A DNA stretch of 34,562 nucleotides from Comamonadaceae bacterium (lineage in GTDB: Bacteria; Pseudomonadota; Gammaproteobacteria; Burkholderiales; Burkholderiaceae_C), in contig JAHFQI010000016.1 in NCBI GenBank assembly GCA_023259355.1, positions 1 through 34,562 on the forward strand, written 5' to 3'. Positions 22,431 to 34,562 of the stretch are shown piece after piece (position 1 is the first letter of the stretch; each line of letters starts with the position of its first letter). The notes under the pieces are model-generated. The model ran no database searches. It was not told the origin of the DNA and saw only the letters and a list, made by a program, of their open reading frames with translations. The position numbers and the translations under genes are program-made.

Positions 22431-23339
22431 TCAGGGCGCCAGCAGCGTCAGCCCGTGCTCGCGCCAGATGCGGGCAACGGTGCCGTCCTCCTGCAGCGCC
22501 TTCATCGCCTGCCCCAGGGCTTGCGCCAGTTCGGGCTGCCCTGACTTGATGGCCAACCCCACGACCCAGCCGTTCTGCGGGGTGCCAGGCAGGGACGCGG
22601 GTTCGACGAGGTAGTCGCTGGCGCCCGCCACGTCCTTGAGCACGAACTCGGCCTGGGCCTGCGTCACGTAGGCGGCCGGCCATTTGCCGTCCACCACGCC
22701 ACGCGCCGCGTCCAGCCCCGTGGACGACAGCCGGACCGCGTTCCTGAACCGGCCGCCACCATAGCCGAGCAGCGCGGCGGCGGCGGCGGTGCCGGTTTCC
22801 GCGGCCAGCGTCACGCCGTCCAGCGACATCGACCGCAGGTCCGCCCGCGAGGGCACGCCACGGGTCAACCACACCAGCCGATGGCGGTAGTAGGGCATCA
22901 GGAACTCGACCTGCCGGGTTTCCCCGATCAGGTGCCGGTCGATCGGCACCTGCATCATCAGGTCCGCGGGTCCATAACCCAGGTAGTGGCCGCGCCAGAC
23001 CATGTTGCGCAGGTCGTCGCCCATGTTCTCGCCGGCTTCGAAGGGCAGCCACTGCACCCCCAGGCGCAGGCGCTCGGCCAGCGCCTTCGCCAGCGCCGCG
23101 TCGGCACCGCTCACGCCCTGCGCGCCCCCTTCCGAGAACGGCAGGTGGTTGCGGTACAGCGCCACCTTGAGGCTGCCGCGCTCGCGCAGGTCGGCCAGCT
23201 CGGCCCAGGCCGTGCCCGCCGTCATGGCGGTGGCCGCGCCGGCCAGGAGCAGGTGCCGCCGCCGCATCAGCGGGCCTGGCGCCGCCGAAAGGGCTTCTCC
23301 GGGCTGGCGACGGCCCATAGCGCTCATTGATCTGGACAT
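22431..23339 (-). CDS. Quinoprotein-associated periplasmic solute-binding protein
   Basis: A 302-residue family-3-like binding protein. A long n-region ends in a twin-arginine-like export signal (MRRRHLLLAGAATAMTAGTA). The mature part follows the pattern of binding proteins found beside PQQ dehydrogenases (MoxJ/XoxJ-like): LKVALYRNHLPFSEGG, LGVQWLPFEAGENM, ADLMMQVPIDRHLIG and MPYYRHRLVWL. Such proteins are thought to interact with or help maturation of the dehydrogenase rather than serve an ABC importer, and no permease genes are present here. Start ATG 23339 has an excellent AAGGAG site. It lies 59 bases downstream of pedF on the same strand, so it is probably in the same sigma54-driven unit. 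Confidence 0.82.
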   Translation of the reverse strand: MSRSMSAMGRRQPGEALSAAPGPLMRRRHLLLAGAATAMTAGTAWAELADLRERGSLKVALYRNHLPFSEGGAQGVSGADAALAKALAERLRLGVQWLPFEAGENMGDDLRNMVWRGHYLGYGPADLMMQVPIDRHLIGETRQVEFLMPYYRHRLVWLTRGVPSRADLRSMSLDGVTLAAETGTAAAAALLGYGGGRFRNAVRLSSTGLDAARGVVDGKWPAAYVTQAQAEFVLKDVAGASDYLVEPASLPGTPQNGWVVGLAIKSGQPELAQALGQAMKALQEDGTVARIWREHGLTLLAP

Positions 23340-23398: not shown

Positions 23399-23890
23399 TC
23401 AGGGCTCGCGACGCGTTTCGAGGTAGGTCTTGATGGACCAGACGGCTTCCTGCGACAGGATGCCTTCGAAGGGCGGCATGTAGACGCGGCCATCGCGAGC
23501 CCGCCCGTGGCGAACCGTCGCCGAGAAATACTCCTGCATTTCGCCGTAGCAGGCTTTCTTCTTGGCGGCGTCGGCCATGCCGACGCAGTCCGCGTCGAAC
23601 TTGCGGAGGTCGGGCGCGATGCCGCCCGAAATCGCTTCCAGGCCGTGGCAGCGCGCGCAGTTCTGGTTGTAGGCCGACATGCCGATCCGTCTGGCCTCGG
23701 CATGGACGGCGCCTTCGGCCGTCCCTTGTGAGTAGGGGTTGCTCTCGCGCCACTGGGCGCCGAGTTGCGGCAGCGTGTGGGTGTCCACCGCCTGGGGCGT
23801 GACATCACCGTGGGCGTGAAGGACCAGCGGCGCGGTGAGGGCGAGGGCCGCCATCAGCCGGCGCAGGAGAACGGGGGTAGTTTGAAACAT
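23399..23890 (-). CDS. pedF: Cytochrome c-550 PedF
   Basis: A 163-residue periplasmic c-type cytochrome. The signal peptide MFQTTPVLLRRLMAALALTA is cleaved near AHA. The mature protein has the haem motif CARCH (78-82) within NQNCARCHGLEAISGGIAPDL, and a probable Met ligand at 138 in VYMPPFEG. Cys102 and Cys114 flank an inserted loop and may form a disulfide, a feature of the PedF group. It would accept electrons from a PQQ-dependent alcohol dehydrogenase. A sigma54 promoter lies about 43 bases upstream of the start, and the activator gene is divergent. The frame runs upstream through the promoter region, but the signal peptide fixes the start. Confidence 0.9.
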   Translation of the reverse strand: MFQTTPVLLRRLMAALALTAPLVLHAHGDVTPQAVDTHTLPQLGAQWRESNPYSQGTAEGAVHAEARRIGMSAYNQNCARCHGLEAISGGIAPDLRKFDADCVGMADAAKKKACYGEMQEYFSATVRHGRARDGRVYMPPFEGILSQEAVWSIKTYLETRREP

Positions 23891-23932
23891 GGAGCACCTG
23901 TTGTTGGGAGTTGACACACATTGCCCTTCTCC

Positions 23933-23947
23933 GCAATTGCCGTGCCT
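23933..23947 (-). promoter_or_regulatory. Sigma54 (-24/-12) promoter of pedF
   Basis: Read on the minus strand this is AGGCACGGCAATTGC, against the consensus TGGCACG-N4-TTGC: one mismatch, with GG-N10-GC spacing intact. A start point about 12 bases after the GC would give a leader of about 30 bases to pedF. The divergent activator gene encodes a GAFTGA-containing protein, which supports sigma54 use. Confidence 0.78.
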
Positions 23948-23989
23948 GCCTTCCGCCGCCCGAAAAACCCCCTTGGCGCCCAAGGTGGC

Positions 23990-24005
23990 TGGCAGGAATA
24001 TTGCT
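23990..24005 (+). promoter_or_regulatory. Sigma54 (-24/-12) promoter facing the activator gene
   Basis: TGGCAGGAATATTGCT matches TGGCACG-N4-TTGCW except for one base in the -24 element, with GG-N10-GC spacing intact. It points toward the AcoR-like gene, with a leader of roughly 170 bases to ATG 24186. Its -24 element lies about 42 bases from the pedF -24 element in back-to-back orientation, so one bound activator could serve both. Confidence 0.62.
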
Positions 24006-24009
24006 GAAT

Positions 24010-24174
24010 CTGTCGCAAACGACTTAACATGTGATCCAAAAATGAGCAATGTCAAGGGATCCGGGACAGGGGATGCAACACCGTCGCCCGAGGTGTCCGA
24101 ATGGAACCAACCGCCGCTCAACGAAAGCCTCCAGTTGCCCGACTGGCTGGCGGACAGCGAGCAAGGTGCGACAG
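24010..24174. promoter_or_regulatory. Candidate activator-binding region
   Basis: The 295-base gap between the divergent starts at 23890 and 24186 has short dyads on the activator side. GTCG-CAAA-CGAC is at 24012-24023. ACACC-N9-GGTGT is at 24078-24096. CTGTCGCA at 24010-24017 recurs inverted as TGCGACAG at 24167-24174. Upstream sites at such distances are usual for sigma54 activators. None is long enough to be sure, and no binding motif is known to me for this regulator. Confidence 0.28.
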
Positions 24175-24185
24175 AAGGAGACAAC

Positions 24186-26222
24186 ATGACCGAAACACCG
24201 ACGACCCTCGGTGAGCGGGCACCGTGGCCACAGGTCGAGCCCCTGTCGCCCGAACATCAGGGGATCATCCAGGCCTCTTGGCAGCGCTCTCGCCAGGCCG
24301 GGCTGGCGCCGGGCATGGTGCCCGATTTCACCGGGGCCAGCGCGACCCATGTCAAGAACCTGCTCGATGAAAGCCGGCAGCTCGGCAGCCTCGCCTACCC
24401 GGTGCTGCAGGCCCTGTACGAACAGATTGCCAACACGCACAGCGTGGTCGTCCTCACCGATGGCGCGGGCCGCATCCTGCACTCGATGGGCGACGACACC
24501 TTTCTCGAACAGGCCGAGAAAGTCGCGCTCAAACCCGGCGTGGACTGGTCCGAGACCGCCAAGGGCACGAATGCCATCGGCACGGCGATCGCGCTGGGCC
24601 TGCCCGTCACCGTCCATGCCGACCAGCACTACCTCGAAGCCAACCGCTTCCTGACCTGCTCCAGCACGCCCATCTTCAGCCCCCGCGGCACGATCATCGG
24701 CGTGCTCGACGTCACGGGCGATGCCCGCGGCTACCACCGCCACACCATGGCCCTGGCCCGCATGTCGGCGCAGATCATCGAGAACCAGGTCTTCGCGGAA
24801 ACCTACCAGGACACGGTGCGGCTGCACTTCCATTCGCGCCCCGAATTCATCGGCACGCTGTTCGAGGGGCTGGTGGCGTTCCCCCGGGGCGGCCGCTTCC
24901 TGGCGGCCAACCGTGGCGCGCTGTTCCAGATCGGCCAGGATCTCGCGCCCCTGCAGCGCAACAGCCTGTCCTCCCTGTTCGGCATCTCGATCGACGAGCT
25001 GATCGACCATTGCCGCTCGGCTTCGGCCCAGCTGCTGACCCTGGCGCTGCCCAACGGCGTCACGGTGCGCGCCCGGGCTGATATCCAGGCGCCGGTGCTG
25101 TGGCAGGTGCAGGGCGCGCCTTCGGCAACGCCGGGCGCAACGCCGCCCGCCGCACAACCTGCCGCCGCCCAGTACCGCGAACAGCTGTCGAGCCTGCGCT
25201 ACCTCGACACCGGGGACCCGCAGGTCGCCTCCACCATCCAGAAGCTGCGCCGTGTGCAAGGCTGCGACATTCCGGTCCTGATCCTTGGCGAAACCGGGGT
25301 CGGCAAGGAGCTGCTGGCCAAGGCCATCCACAACGACTCCGCCCGCGCGCGGAACCCGTTCATCGCGGTCAACTGCGCCTCGATTCCCGAAAGCCTGATC
25401 GAGGCCGAGCTGTTCGGCTACGAGGAAGGCGCGTTCACCGGCGCCCGCCGCAAAGGCGCCATGGGCAAGATCCAGATGGCCAATGGCGGCACGCTCTTCC
25501 TGGACGAAATCGGGGACATGCCGCTCACGCTGCAGACCCGCCTGCTGCGTGCGCTGCAGGAGCGCGTGATTTCACCGCTGGGCTCCAACCGCAGCATCCC
25601 GGTCAATTTCGCGGTCATCAGCGCCACCCACCGGAACCTGCGGCACATGATCGCCGCGGGGTCGTTCCGCGAAGACCTCTACTACCGGCTCAACGGCCTG
25701 GCGGTGCGCCTGCCGGCGCTGCGCGAACGCACGGACCTGGATGCCATCGTCCACCACGTGCTGAAGTCGGGCTGCGACGGCGGGGGGGACAAGCGCCTTT
25801 CGGATGACGTTCAGCGGCTTTTTGCCCGCTACCCATGGCCCGGCAACGTGCGGCAGCTGAGCAACGTGCTGCGCACGGCCTGTGTCCTGTCCGGGAACGA
25901 ACCGTTCATCGAACTGGAACACCTGCCCGACGACTTCATCGAGGAGACCGACATGCAGGCGGGCAGCCCCGGCCCGGCGGCCGCCAACGCCACGGGGGAC
26001 AGTCGCGTTGCGCCCGCGGAGTTCACCGCCACGGCCGCCGACGCGCCGGCGCAGGCGCCGCCCGTCTGGATGGACAAGGGCCTGCAGGAGGTCGAGATCC
26101 AGGCGATCAACAGCGCCCTCGCGCGCTGCGGCGGCAACGTCTCGGCGGCGGCGCGCATGCTCGGCGTCTCGCGCAACACCATCTACCGCAAGGTGCCCGA
26201 GCTGGCGCAGAAGAAAGACTGA
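24186..26222 (+). CDS. AcoR-family sigma54-dependent transcriptional activator
   Basis: A 678-residue enhancer-binding protein. The N-terminal sensor is of the AcoR type with a GAF domain ([15 protein letters not shown], then [12 protein letters not shown] and [12 protein letters not shown]; roughly residues 60-210). The AAA+ core holds Walker A GETGVGKE (~368), the sigma54-contact loop GAFTGA (415-420), Walker [14 protein letters not shown] and the [10 protein letters not shown] sensor region. A Fis-type helix-turn-helix ends the protein ([20 protein letters not shown]). ATG 24186 has a strong AAGGAG site. The long upstream open frame is promoter DNA. AcoR-like proteins often control PQQ alcohol dehydrogenase genes in response to alcohols or aldehydes. 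Here the divergent pedF promoter is the obvious target; the effector is unknown. Confidence 0.92.
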
Positions 26223-27248: not shown

Positions 27249-28375
27249 GCGCGCCCCCTCACGGCGTTTCGCAAGGCCCGCGCCATGGCGGGCTCCGTGG
27301 CCAGATGCCCGGCGTGGACCGGGATGGTGCCGACCGCCCCCGCGCCAGCCGGGCCAGCGAACCAGGCCGTGACGCGCCGCGCGTTGCCGGGCGAACAGAC
27401 CGCGTCGAAGCGGCCATGAAGGACCTGCACCGGCGCCCGGGCCGGCGCTGAAGCTGGCGTTGCGGCGGCTTGCGCCAGCCAGCCGCGCCAGGCTGGAACG
27501 GCCCCGCTCAACAGGTGGTCGCACCCCCGCGACAGCAGCCGGGCCTGCAACGCCACCTTCCGCGCCTGCGCGGGGGGCACCGGGCGCCGCATGCGCAGCC
27601 CCGCCGCCCCTCGACGCTCGCTGCGCCGAAGGTCGCGCCAGGCGGCGCGCAGCCGCCACGCCGCCGCCGCGTTGTTCTCCGGCGCAACCTCAGACGCATG
27701 GCGTGACGCCCGGCATGCGCCGCGCAGGGCGGTGCGGCCCTCCGCCAGCAGCCAGGCGCGGGCCACCAGGGCGGCCGCCGGACCAGGTGTTGCAAAACGG
27801 AACAACCGATGTACCGCGCCCAGCCAGGCAGGCAAACCGAGCCTTGATGCCGGTGGAGGCAGGCCGGCCTGGCGCAGCACGCCAGCCGGCATCGCACGGA
27901 CCAGACCCCAGACATCGCCGGTGCGCCCCAGGAAACTGCCGCGCAGCACCACCCGTTCCACGGACGCCGGGTAGCGGCGCAAGTAGGCCAGCGCGAGGTA
28001 CGCCCCCCAGGAGCCGCCCAGCACCGACCAGCGCGGAATGGCCAGCGCCTCGCGCAGCGCTTCCAGGTCCGACACCATCGCCGCCACAGGCAGGCGCCCG
28101 GCGCGTCGAACGCCAGCCGCCGCACTGCCGCGCTGGTGCGACCCCCAGGCCGTGTGAAGCGCCGCGTCGAACGCCGCCAGCAAGGCCGGCGACGCGCCGC
28201 TGCCGGGGCCGCCGTGCAGCACCAGCCAGGGCTCGCCACCAGACTCGCCCAGCCGCCAGCCGGACTGCCCCCCCGCGGCGGTCATCAGGCGCCACGGCCG
28301 CGGGCGAGAGCCGCCCTCGTAAAGCGTGGTGTCGGGACTGGCTGCGGGGGTGTCTGTAGGGGCTTGGTTTCTCAT
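27242..28375 (-). CDS. Alpha/beta hydrolase, prolyl aminopeptidase-like, divergent from pqqA
   Basis: A 377-residue protein related to S33 prolyl aminopeptidases. It has the oxyanion motif HGGPGSG (54-60), nucleophile elbow GGSWG with Ser122, probable acid Asp324 (HGRFDAV) and His357 (VHAGHL), so the triad looks intact. The DQRGxGxS loop typical of true prolyl aminopeptidases is degenerate here (SHQRGSAAAG). Specificity has therefore probably shifted. No signal peptide is evident. ATG 28375 (MRNQAPTD) is chosen as the last Met before conserved sequence. It faces pqqA across 108 bases and overlaps the metallohydrolase gene by seven bases. Peptidase-like genes are common in pqq loci (for example pqqF, or an S9 peptidase in pseudomonads), so a role in processing cross-linked PqqA is plausible but unproven. 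Confidence 0.7.
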   Translation of the reverse strand: MRNQAPTDTPAASPDTTLYEGGSRPRPWRLMTAAGGQSGWRLGESGGEPWLVLHGGPGSGASPALLAAFDAALHTAWGSHQRGSAAAGVRRAGRLPVAAMVSDLEALREALAIPRWSVLGGSWGAYLALAYLRRYPASVERVVLRGSFLGRTGDVWGLVRAMPAGVLRQAGLPPPASRLGLPAWLGAVHRLFRFATPGPAAALVARAWLLAEGRTALRGACRASRHASEVAPENNAAAAWRLRAAWRDLRRSERRGAAGLRMRRPVPPAQARKVALQARLLSRGCDHLLSGAVPAWRGWLAQAAATPASAPARAPVQVLHGRFDAVCSPGNARRVTAWFAGPAGAGAVGTIPVHAGHLATEPAMARALRNAVRGRAC

Positions 28376-28390
28376 GGCATGGATGGTGCT
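28375..28390 (+). promoter_or_regulatory. Possible sigma54 promoter for pqqA
   Basis: TGGCATGGATGGTGCT keeps GG-N10-GC spacing and TGGCA, but the -12 element is GTGC rather than TTGC. It would give a leader of about 80 bases to pqqA. It overlaps the start codon of the divergent hydrolase gene. Such matches arise by chance in GC-rich DNA, and no clear sigma70 pair was seen as an alternative. Confidence 0.3.
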
Positions 28391-28483
28391 TGCAAGAGGC
28401 GTGCAAAGCGTTGTTGTACCGGCTTGCAACAGGTGGGACGGCATCGACTTTGCGCTCTGTTCAAACTACTTCAGGAGACTGCC

Positions 28484-28558
28484 ATGCAATGGACCACCCC
28501 GACTTTCGTCGACATGCGCTTCGGTTTTGAAATCACGATGTACATCGCGAATCGCTGA
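28484..28558 (+). CDS. pqqA: Coenzyme PQQ precursor peptide PqqA
   Basis: A 24-residue peptide ending FEITMYIANR. Glu16 and Tyr20 have the E-x3-Y spacing of the residues that PqqE cross-links and that become the PQQ skeleton. The N-terminal MQWTTPTFVDMRFGF is typical of PqqA. A CAGGAG ribosome binding site lies at 28472-28477, seven bases ahead of the start. A strong hairpin follows the gene before pqqB, as expected for a precursor needed in excess over the enzymes. Confidence 0.97.
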   Translation: MQWTTPTFVDMRFGFEITMYIANR

Positions 28559-33779: not shown

Positions 33780-34103
33780 TCAGCGCGCCAGAACCCACTC
33801 CACGATGGTCTTCACTTCGGCTTCGGCCAGCGAGTTGTTCGCGGGCATGGGGATACGGCCCCAGGCGCCCTTGGAGCCGTTGCGCACGCTCTGCACCAGG
33901 TGGCTCACGGCATCGGACTGGCCGCGGTATTTGTCCGCGACCAGCTTGTAGGCGGGGCCCACCACTTTCTCATTGATGGAATGGCAGGACAGGCAGCCGG
34001 CATCCCGGGCCATCTGTTCGGGCGTAGCCGCCCAGGCTGCCGGCGTGGCAAGCAGCGCGCACAGCGCGAGGCCTTTTGCCGCTTCAAATACTCGGGATCG
34101 CAT
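33780..34103 (-). CDS. Small class I cytochrome c
   Basis: A 107-residue periplasmic monohaem cytochrome. The signal peptide (AAKGLALCALLATPAAWA) is followed by haem motif CLSCH in AGCLSCHSINEKVVGPAY, and a Met ligand in WGRIPMPANN. It matches the c-551/c8 group. Read on its strand, a GGAG ribosome binding site precedes the start. It lies downstream of the alcohol dehydrogenase on the same strand and would accept electrons from it, although a terminator-like hairpin separates the two. The cassette's attC ends about 85 bases from its stop. Confidence 0.92.
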   Translation of the reverse strand: MRSRVFEAAKGLALCALLATPAAWAATPEQMARDAGCLSCHSINEKVVGPAYKLVADKYRGQSDAVSHLVQSVRNGSKGAWGRIPMPANNSLAEAEVKTIVEWVLAR

Positions 34104-34228: not shown

Positions 34229-34562
34229 TCAGCTCTTGTGCAGCTTGAACACCCACACCGATCCGCCCTGCTCGAGGAAGTTGACCTTCTTGGCCACTTC
34301 GCCGCCCCACAGCGGAACCGCGCCGCCCCAGCCGGACACGACCGAGATGTACTGCTCGCCGTCCTGTTCCCAGGTGATGGGGGGCGCAACGATGCCGGAG
34401 CCGGTCTGGAACTGCCACACGACCTTGCCGGTCTTCGCATCGGCCGCCTTCAGGTAGCCCTCGGGCGTGCCCCAGAACACCAGGTTGCCGGCGGTGGTCA
34501 GCACACCACCCCACAGCGGCGCTTCGTTCTTGACTTCCCACACGATCTTGCCGGTCTTGGGG
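34229..34562 (-). CDS. PQQ-dependent alcohol dehydrogenase, C-terminal fragment
   Basis: The frame is open to the window edge, so only the last ~111 residues are seen. They form beta-propeller repeats of the quinoprotein family ([20 protein letters not shown], then [20 protein letters not shown]). [20 protein letters not shown] and [11 protein letters not shown], with a short tail ending FKLHKS, match the ethanol dehydrogenase group (ExaA/PedE/PedH) better than XoxF or MxaF. The PQQ and metal ligands lie outside the window, so calcium versus lanthanide use cannot be judged. It oxidises alcohols in the periplasm and is the natural client of the pqq operon and cytochromes here. Confidence 0.9.

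Follow-up and report, generated by a model that had tools for sequence, protein, structure and literature searches.

A putative two-way sigma54 switch between pedF and a GAF-AAA+-Fis activator gene in a Comamonadaceae bacterium

Introduction

In enterobacteria, ZraR drives the divergent sigma54 promoters of zraP and zraSR, as stated in the part of the report available to us (PMC4987338). The locus studied here lies in a window of 34,562 nucleotides, the whole stretch of DNA analysed, from a Comamonadaceae bacterium (contig JAHFQI010000016.1). It resembles the ZraR system, as outlined in that part of the report, in the combination of one sigma54 activator with divergent sigma54 promoters, predicted in our case, that serve a periplasmic target and the activator's own operon or gene. 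However, the same text presents ZraR as the response regulator of a two-component system, whereas the activator encoded in the window carries a GAF domain and, unlike the situation given there for ZraR, each promoter in the window has its own candidate enhancer, situated in the leader of the other gene. ZraR thus already provides a case of self-activation from a divergent pair (PMC4987338). A sequence-only reading of the window had called self-activation of the activator gene unusual; the ZraR precedent qualifies this, and the activator-facing site is, moreover, not universal among the relatives.

The exaA gene of Azospirillum brasilense Sp7 is under the control of sigma54 and a LuxR-type regulator (Singh et al. 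2017, cited in PMC12826043, available in part), and the same excerpt mentions EraR with RpoN as a positive control in two-hybrid work. The likeness to our locus consists in a quinoprotein alcohol dehydrogenase under sigma54, predicted for the window; the partner named in the excerpt is a LuxR-type regulator, whereas that of the window is a GAF-AAA+-Fis activator. In Ralstonia solanacearum GMI1000, growth on ethanol requires rpoN1, and an AcoR homologue encoded beside exaC is predicted to control exaC (PMC4676750, in the portion available). There, as here, an AcoR-type activator is predicted for ethanol oxidation. The target predicted in that portion is the acetaldehyde dehydrogenase ExaC and not pedF, and a divergent self-activating promoter is not mentioned in it for the AcoR homologue. 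In Pseudomonas putida, pedF, pedG and the PQQ dehydrogenases reside in one alcohol-oxidation cluster (PMC12997753), and Pseudomonas pedE, pedF and pedI are reported to be under positive control by PedR1 and PedR2 (PMC13390443). The accessible sections of these two papers place the P. putida ped cluster under PedR1/PedR2 control and describe no AcoR-type sigma54 activator. Among the entries listed in a literature search, judged by title and abstract opening and with most subscription papers outside its scope, none describes the pedF/activator arrangement.

The arrangement outlines a regulon for PQQ-dependent alcohol oxidation in Comamonadaceae that lends itself to testing, including candidate activator sites, and may represent a compact, natural example of sigma54 positive feedback, with each enhancer sitting in the leader of the opposite gene.

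Results and discussion

Genes around the intergenic region

The minus-strand gene at 23399-23890 encodes a cytochrome c-550 that matches TIGR04494 (c550_PedF) with 196.9 bits at a cut-off of 122, which confirms the name pedF given to it in the sequence-only reading. A second minus-strand gene (22431-23339) in the PedG position encodes a periplasmic solute-binding protein (Pfam SBP_bac_3, 28.7 bits, cut-off 26.4), which we label PedG from its position. A homologue is encoded in the DNA of 42 of the 46 pedF/activator loci compared below. The sigma54 activator gene on the plus strand can be read as a long frame (24042-26222) or from an internal start (24186-26222) that follows AGGAGACAAC, with GGAGAC conserved upstream. 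Its product unites a GAF sensor, an AAA+ sigma54 domain and a Fis-type helix-turn-helix in a single protein (Pfam GAF, Sigma54_activat and HTH_8, each above its cut-off), and the GAFTGA in its translation is presumably the sigma54-activator motif. Among the 25 matches listed, of 28, to NCBIfam families, none exceeds its cut-off; the earlier designation 'AcoR-like' is therefore retained as a description of the GAF/AAA+/Fis architecture and dropped as a statement of AcoR membership. The AlphaFold model of the activator is poor (mean pLDDT 45.6) and was left unused. Three other strong sigma54 activator domains are encoded in the assembly.

The PQQ synthesis genes start on the plus strand with a gene found by pattern at 28483-28557, which we take to be pqqA and which has pqqC and pqqE downstream. 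On the minus strand, the C-terminal piece of a PQQ alcohol dehydrogenase (34229-34562) matches profile positions 451-530 of TIGR03075 with 126.7 bits, a value below the whole-protein cut-off because the gene is cut by the contig end.

Two sigma54-type elements back to back

In sigma54 promoters, a GG and a GC separated by ten bases form part of the consensus TGGCACG-N4-TTGCW, and transcription starts 12 bases on from the C of the -12 element. The earlier claim of two such sites with one -24 mismatch each and GG-N10-GC spacing was borne out when the window sequence was reread. On the minus strand, AGGCACGGCAATTGC (23933-23947, within the element 23932-23947) faces pedF and has a predicted start at about 23921; on the plus strand, TGGCAGGAATATTGCT (23990-24005) faces the activator gene and has a predicted start at about 24016. 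Each site shows one mismatch to TGGCACG-N4-TTGC, and in the minus site the base after GC is G instead of A or T. The interval between them, previously put at about 42 bases, is exactly 42 (23948-23989).

A plain count of consensus matches with up to two mismatches did not separate the sites from chance (28 matches in the window versus 23.4 expected, not significant); a weight matrix and conservation did. The matrix was built from the pedF promoters of loci that do not belong to the window clade, i.e., the window together with loci L038, L064, L039, L040 and L041. With this matrix, position-weight scoring, a check that the sequence-only reading had proposed, gave 14.8 bits for the minus and 14.9 bits for the plus site, ranks 5 and 4 among 69,094 window positions; positions 1278, 33726 and 5542 (+) score slightly higher than the pair (15-16 bits). 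When the 295-bp gap was resampled 2000 times with a first-order model, scores as high were rare on the plus (p=0.0015) and the minus strand (p=0.003) and never occurred on both together (0/2000). The pattern TGGCANG-N4-TTGCW, which was fitted to the plus site, occurs nine times in the 3.8-Mb assembly, and its reversed control is absent. An rpoN gene was found in the assembly.

A strict sigma70 scan of 23800-24260 found no promoter, and its silence is weak evidence because the scan is strict. The hexamer TTGACA at 23911-23916 was considered as a sigma70 element and rejected, as the strict scan is empty and both L040 and L041 lack the hexamer; we prefer to read this position as part of an enhancer, since the enhancer match described below holds throughout the clade. 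A terminator-like hairpin on the minus strand (23971-23985; 0.6 expected) lies between both promoters. It was set aside, the segment being absent or different in the other five aligned clade loci.

Conservation of the two sites among relatives

An activator match was present in 65 records, 52 of which also have a pedF match in the retrieved DNA. The 13 records lacking one were left out; three of them are other activators of the window's own assembly. Removal of L030, where pedF is not divergent, and of the duplicates L003, L008, L009, L010 and L018 left 46 loci including the window. A further set of 20 relatives' loci was not included in the conservation counts.

On the pedF side, 30 of the 46 loci have a GG-N10-GC site with no more than one mismatch (0.19 simulated); up to two mismatches are seen in 41 (1.9) and up to three in all 46 (8.5). 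These counts were obtained without training, whereas the pedF-side scores of the alignment and the 46-locus matrix are partly circular because training was done partly on pedF-side sites. The corresponding figures for the activator-facing site are 3/46 (0.13 simulated), 13/46 (1.4) and 27/46 (7.1). A plus-strand matrix score of at least 9 bits is reached in 22 of the 46 loci, compared with 4.2 simulated and 2/45 in coding controls; at 13 bits or more the excess is small (just 5/46 versus 0.6 simulated, maximum 4). The sigma54 matrices behind the alignment and permutation results, the 46-locus scores, the open-frame comparison and the dehydrogenase and pqqA sites below contain one mischosen 16-mer from L041 (5790 instead of 5683; both have three mismatches), and the promoter-enhancer distances for this locus, which are based on 5790, are unreliable.

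Within the window clade, TGGC and TTGC stand at fixed spacing in the activator-facing site of all six loci, including L064, where the site is degraded (6.7 bits). When the six loci are aligned, sigma54 scores peak at column 23990 on the plus and at 23932 on the minus strand. The plus-strand column has a mean of 12.7 bits, the next one -3.8, and none of 2000 permuted matrices reached it. Eight loci of the Limnohabitans type carry a related activator-facing site. A tree was made of 44 activators, for which the site was labelled by hand as present in 18 rows (L064 and L066, both partial, were left out); on it the labels require six changes compared with a shuffled mean of 14.2; the activator-facing site thus follows clades and is not universal. 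Loci L021, L023, L029, L033 and L063 reach 9 bits and were nevertheless labelled site-less, the position or sequence of the match being unfit.

These data bear on the idea that the plus site is a chance match retained through common ancestry. The six clade loci are related, and simply counting consensus matches gives no significant excess in the window, both as this idea would have it. However, TGGC and TTGC are kept at fixed spacing in 6/6 loci despite gaps in the intergenic alignment, a mean intergenic identity of 53% and activators that are 63-85% identical to that of the window, and we consider a chance match extremely improbable.

An enhancer motif placed for each promoter

A motif was learned by expectation maximisation on 34 upstream regions of PQQ alcohol dehydrogenase genes, a training set in which close relatives of the window are represented by their dehydrogenase promoters and from which all pedF/activator DNA is excluded. 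It is an imperfect palindrome with the best form GTGATCCAAA.TTGAACACT. In the pedF/activator regions, matches of at least 10 bits are present in 41/46 (1.97 simulated) and of at least 13 bits in 33/46 (0.55 simulated). The best match in the window, UAS-B (24031-24050, plus strand, 20.8 bits), has its centre some 120 bp upstream of where pedF transcription is predicted to start. UAS-B also has the fewest mismatches among the 37 assembly-wide matches to the enhancer pattern (reversed control 14); of 20 loci from that assembly-wide search, L140 alone was used. A weaker site, UAS-A (23900-23919, minus strand), lies in the pedF leader, its centre some 107 bp upstream of the start predicted for the activator. 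In the window alone it is weak (5.2 bits unsmoothed, 9.1 smoothed). Over the 276 columns of the six-locus alignment, the best enhancer columns are UAS-B (mean 19.4 bits) and then UAS-A (9.9 bits with the smoothed matrix). With 2000 permuted matrices, a score of 19.4 was never reached; the top column was at least 9.9 in 0.2% of them, and the second column in none. Each of the two elements resides just downstream of the predicted start of the other gene. Six of the eight Limnohabitans-type loci have an enhancer match of at least 13 bits between both promoters, the exceptions being L054 (11.0 bits) and L062 (only 7.8). The region thus offers sigma54 sites on both strands and candidate activator sites within reach of both promoters, the one for the activator promoter being weak.

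That the activator drives both pedF and its own gene, as first suggested for this window, is supported by promoter conservation and by an enhancer motif placed for each promoter. Judged by these features, sigma54 control of pedF is very likely, and self-activation of the activator is likely in the window clade. In the mechanism that we propose, an alcohol-related signal would be sensed through the GAF domain; the activator would bind at UAS-B and render RNA polymerase-sigma54 active at the pedF promoter, and binding at UAS-A would switch on its own promoter at 23990, with positive feedback inside one PQQ-dependent alcohol oxidation regulon as the predicted outcome. Binding and transcription, the protein that binds, the signal that it senses and whether the feedback is positive are all inferred from sequence. 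The activator is assigned to the UAS sites by adjacency and the shared motif. Points against the proposal are the weakness of UAS-A in the window, the degraded activator-facing site of L064 and its absence from many relatives, six dehydrogenase genes that have no sigma54 site (see below), the assignment of the motif's binder by adjacency and the assembly's other sigma54 activators.

The latter observation leads to a different assignment, according to which the plus site does work as a sigma54 promoter but is driven by another activator, e.g., a nitrogen or general carbon regulator. Sigma54 sites name no activator, and the three additional strong activator domains in the assembly would supply candidates. 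Yet UAS-A, rightly placed for the plus promoter, resembles the enhancer motif of the alcohol dehydrogenase genes, and we regard control by another activator as quite improbable.

Self-repression is common among activators of this type, and UAS-B may serve it since it sits in the activator's leader: binding there, a short way past the start predicted for the activator, could lead to repression instead of activation. Under this explanation, pedF alone would be activated, and the activator gene would be transcribed from a housekeeping promoter and repressed by its own product via UAS-B across the leader. The absence of the activator-facing site from many relatives fits such a scheme, as does the location of UAS-B. 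It is opposed by the sigma54 column at 23990, which leads the plus strand of the clade by 16 bits and is not equalled by any of the 2000 permuted matrices, and by the strict scan, which found no sigma70-like promoter in the region. We therefore judge repression from a housekeeping promoter to be unlikely and favour self-activation from 23990 in the window clade.

An upstream extension of the activator frame

The activator frame extends 48 codons upstream of 24186 to an ATG at 24042, inside UAS-B. In the six clade loci this extension contains no stop in 298 codons, compared with 8 and 10 in the other two frames; its length is a multiple of three in every locus, and an LPDWL motif is conserved; differences at the three codon positions (0.42, 0.40 and 0.52) show a modest third-position excess. 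Eight Limnohabitans-type loci have no stop in 345 extension codons versus 25 and 21 in the other frames, and there is no ATG at the point where counting began. From this pattern of conservation, the leader upstream of 24186 is taken to be coding. All six clade loci read ATG at 24042. In the dehydrogenase enhancer set, A at the equivalent position has a frequency of 0.04, and retention of the ATG despite this low frequency is as expected if it is preserved as a start codon. Upstream of 24042 the window has no good ribosome-binding sequence. A strong one precedes 24186, and its GGAGAC is present in 6/6 clade and 8/8 Limnohabitans-type loci. Across 32 versus 14 loci, no association was found between the activator-facing site and a longer upstream open frame (p=0.37), and we claim no link between the two.

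Dehydrogenase and pqqA promoters in the wider regulon

PQQ alcohol dehydrogenase genes were present in all 35 relatives searched. Of 41 dehydrogenase loci retrieved, L123 has too little upstream DNA (108 bases), leaving 40 testable ones; the count excludes homologues that score under the family cut-off (L101-L107) as well as rows for which there was no locus. A sigma54 site of at least 13 bits lies upstream of 34/40 testable genes, and none of the 34 testable genomes is without such a gene. No site of this strength was found upstream of the remaining six (L118, L132, L133, L135, L136 and L137), with upstream scores of 6.8 bits for L136 and 8.9 bits for L137. As an aside, the below-cut-off dehydrogenase homologue L101 has no sigma54 site, and the associated pqqA has neither a site nor an enhancer.

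In the window, a candidate sigma54 element for pqqA (28375-28390, plus strand, 12.9 bits) is preceded, at a distance of about 580 bp, by a motif match within the upstream hydrolase gene that may act as a distal enhancer (27787-27806, plus strand, 19.4 bits). Among the pqqA genes found by pattern, 13/14 have a sigma54 site of at least 11.8 bits within 250 bp, the exception being L101, and the same 13 have an enhancer match of at least 14 bits within 900 bp. The best enhancer match lies about 627-752 bp upstream of pqqA in 12 of these 13, the window included, and at 190 bp in L061. Within the homologous hydrolase genes, the best enhancer match falls on alignment columns 243-244 in 12/12 cases (window included). 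Third-position identity at the site is 0.71 compared with a mean of 0.52, figures that include kinship among the relatives, and several other stretches of the hydrolase gene are equally conserved. A conserved long-range intragenic enhancer for PQQ synthesis is thus offered as a candidate, and we treat it as a lead and not as a result because other hydrolase stretches are as conserved and relatedness is still in the data. Overall, we consider it probable that the locus is a two-way sigma54 switch, in which the GAF-AAA+-Fis activator would drive pedF, the PQQ dehydrogenase gene, pqqA and, in the window clade, itself.

A more far-reaching reading combines the pqqA lead with the extended activator frame. 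The activator would exist in two forms, a long one from 24042 and a short one from 24186, and the same activator would drive pqqA from the intragenic enhancer about 580 bp upstream. The self-activated sigma54 transcript would then carry the 48-codon extension, and 24186 would give the short form. If true, feedback would alter the quality of the activator as well as its amount. We put this combination forward tentatively and hold it to be rather doubtful.

As a minor observation, a small open reading frame with a CxxCH motif (33780-34103, minus strand) adjoins the cut alcohol dehydrogenase gene at the contig end. We take CxxCH to be a haem-binding motif and the product to be, probably, the cytochrome of the alcohol dehydrogenase.
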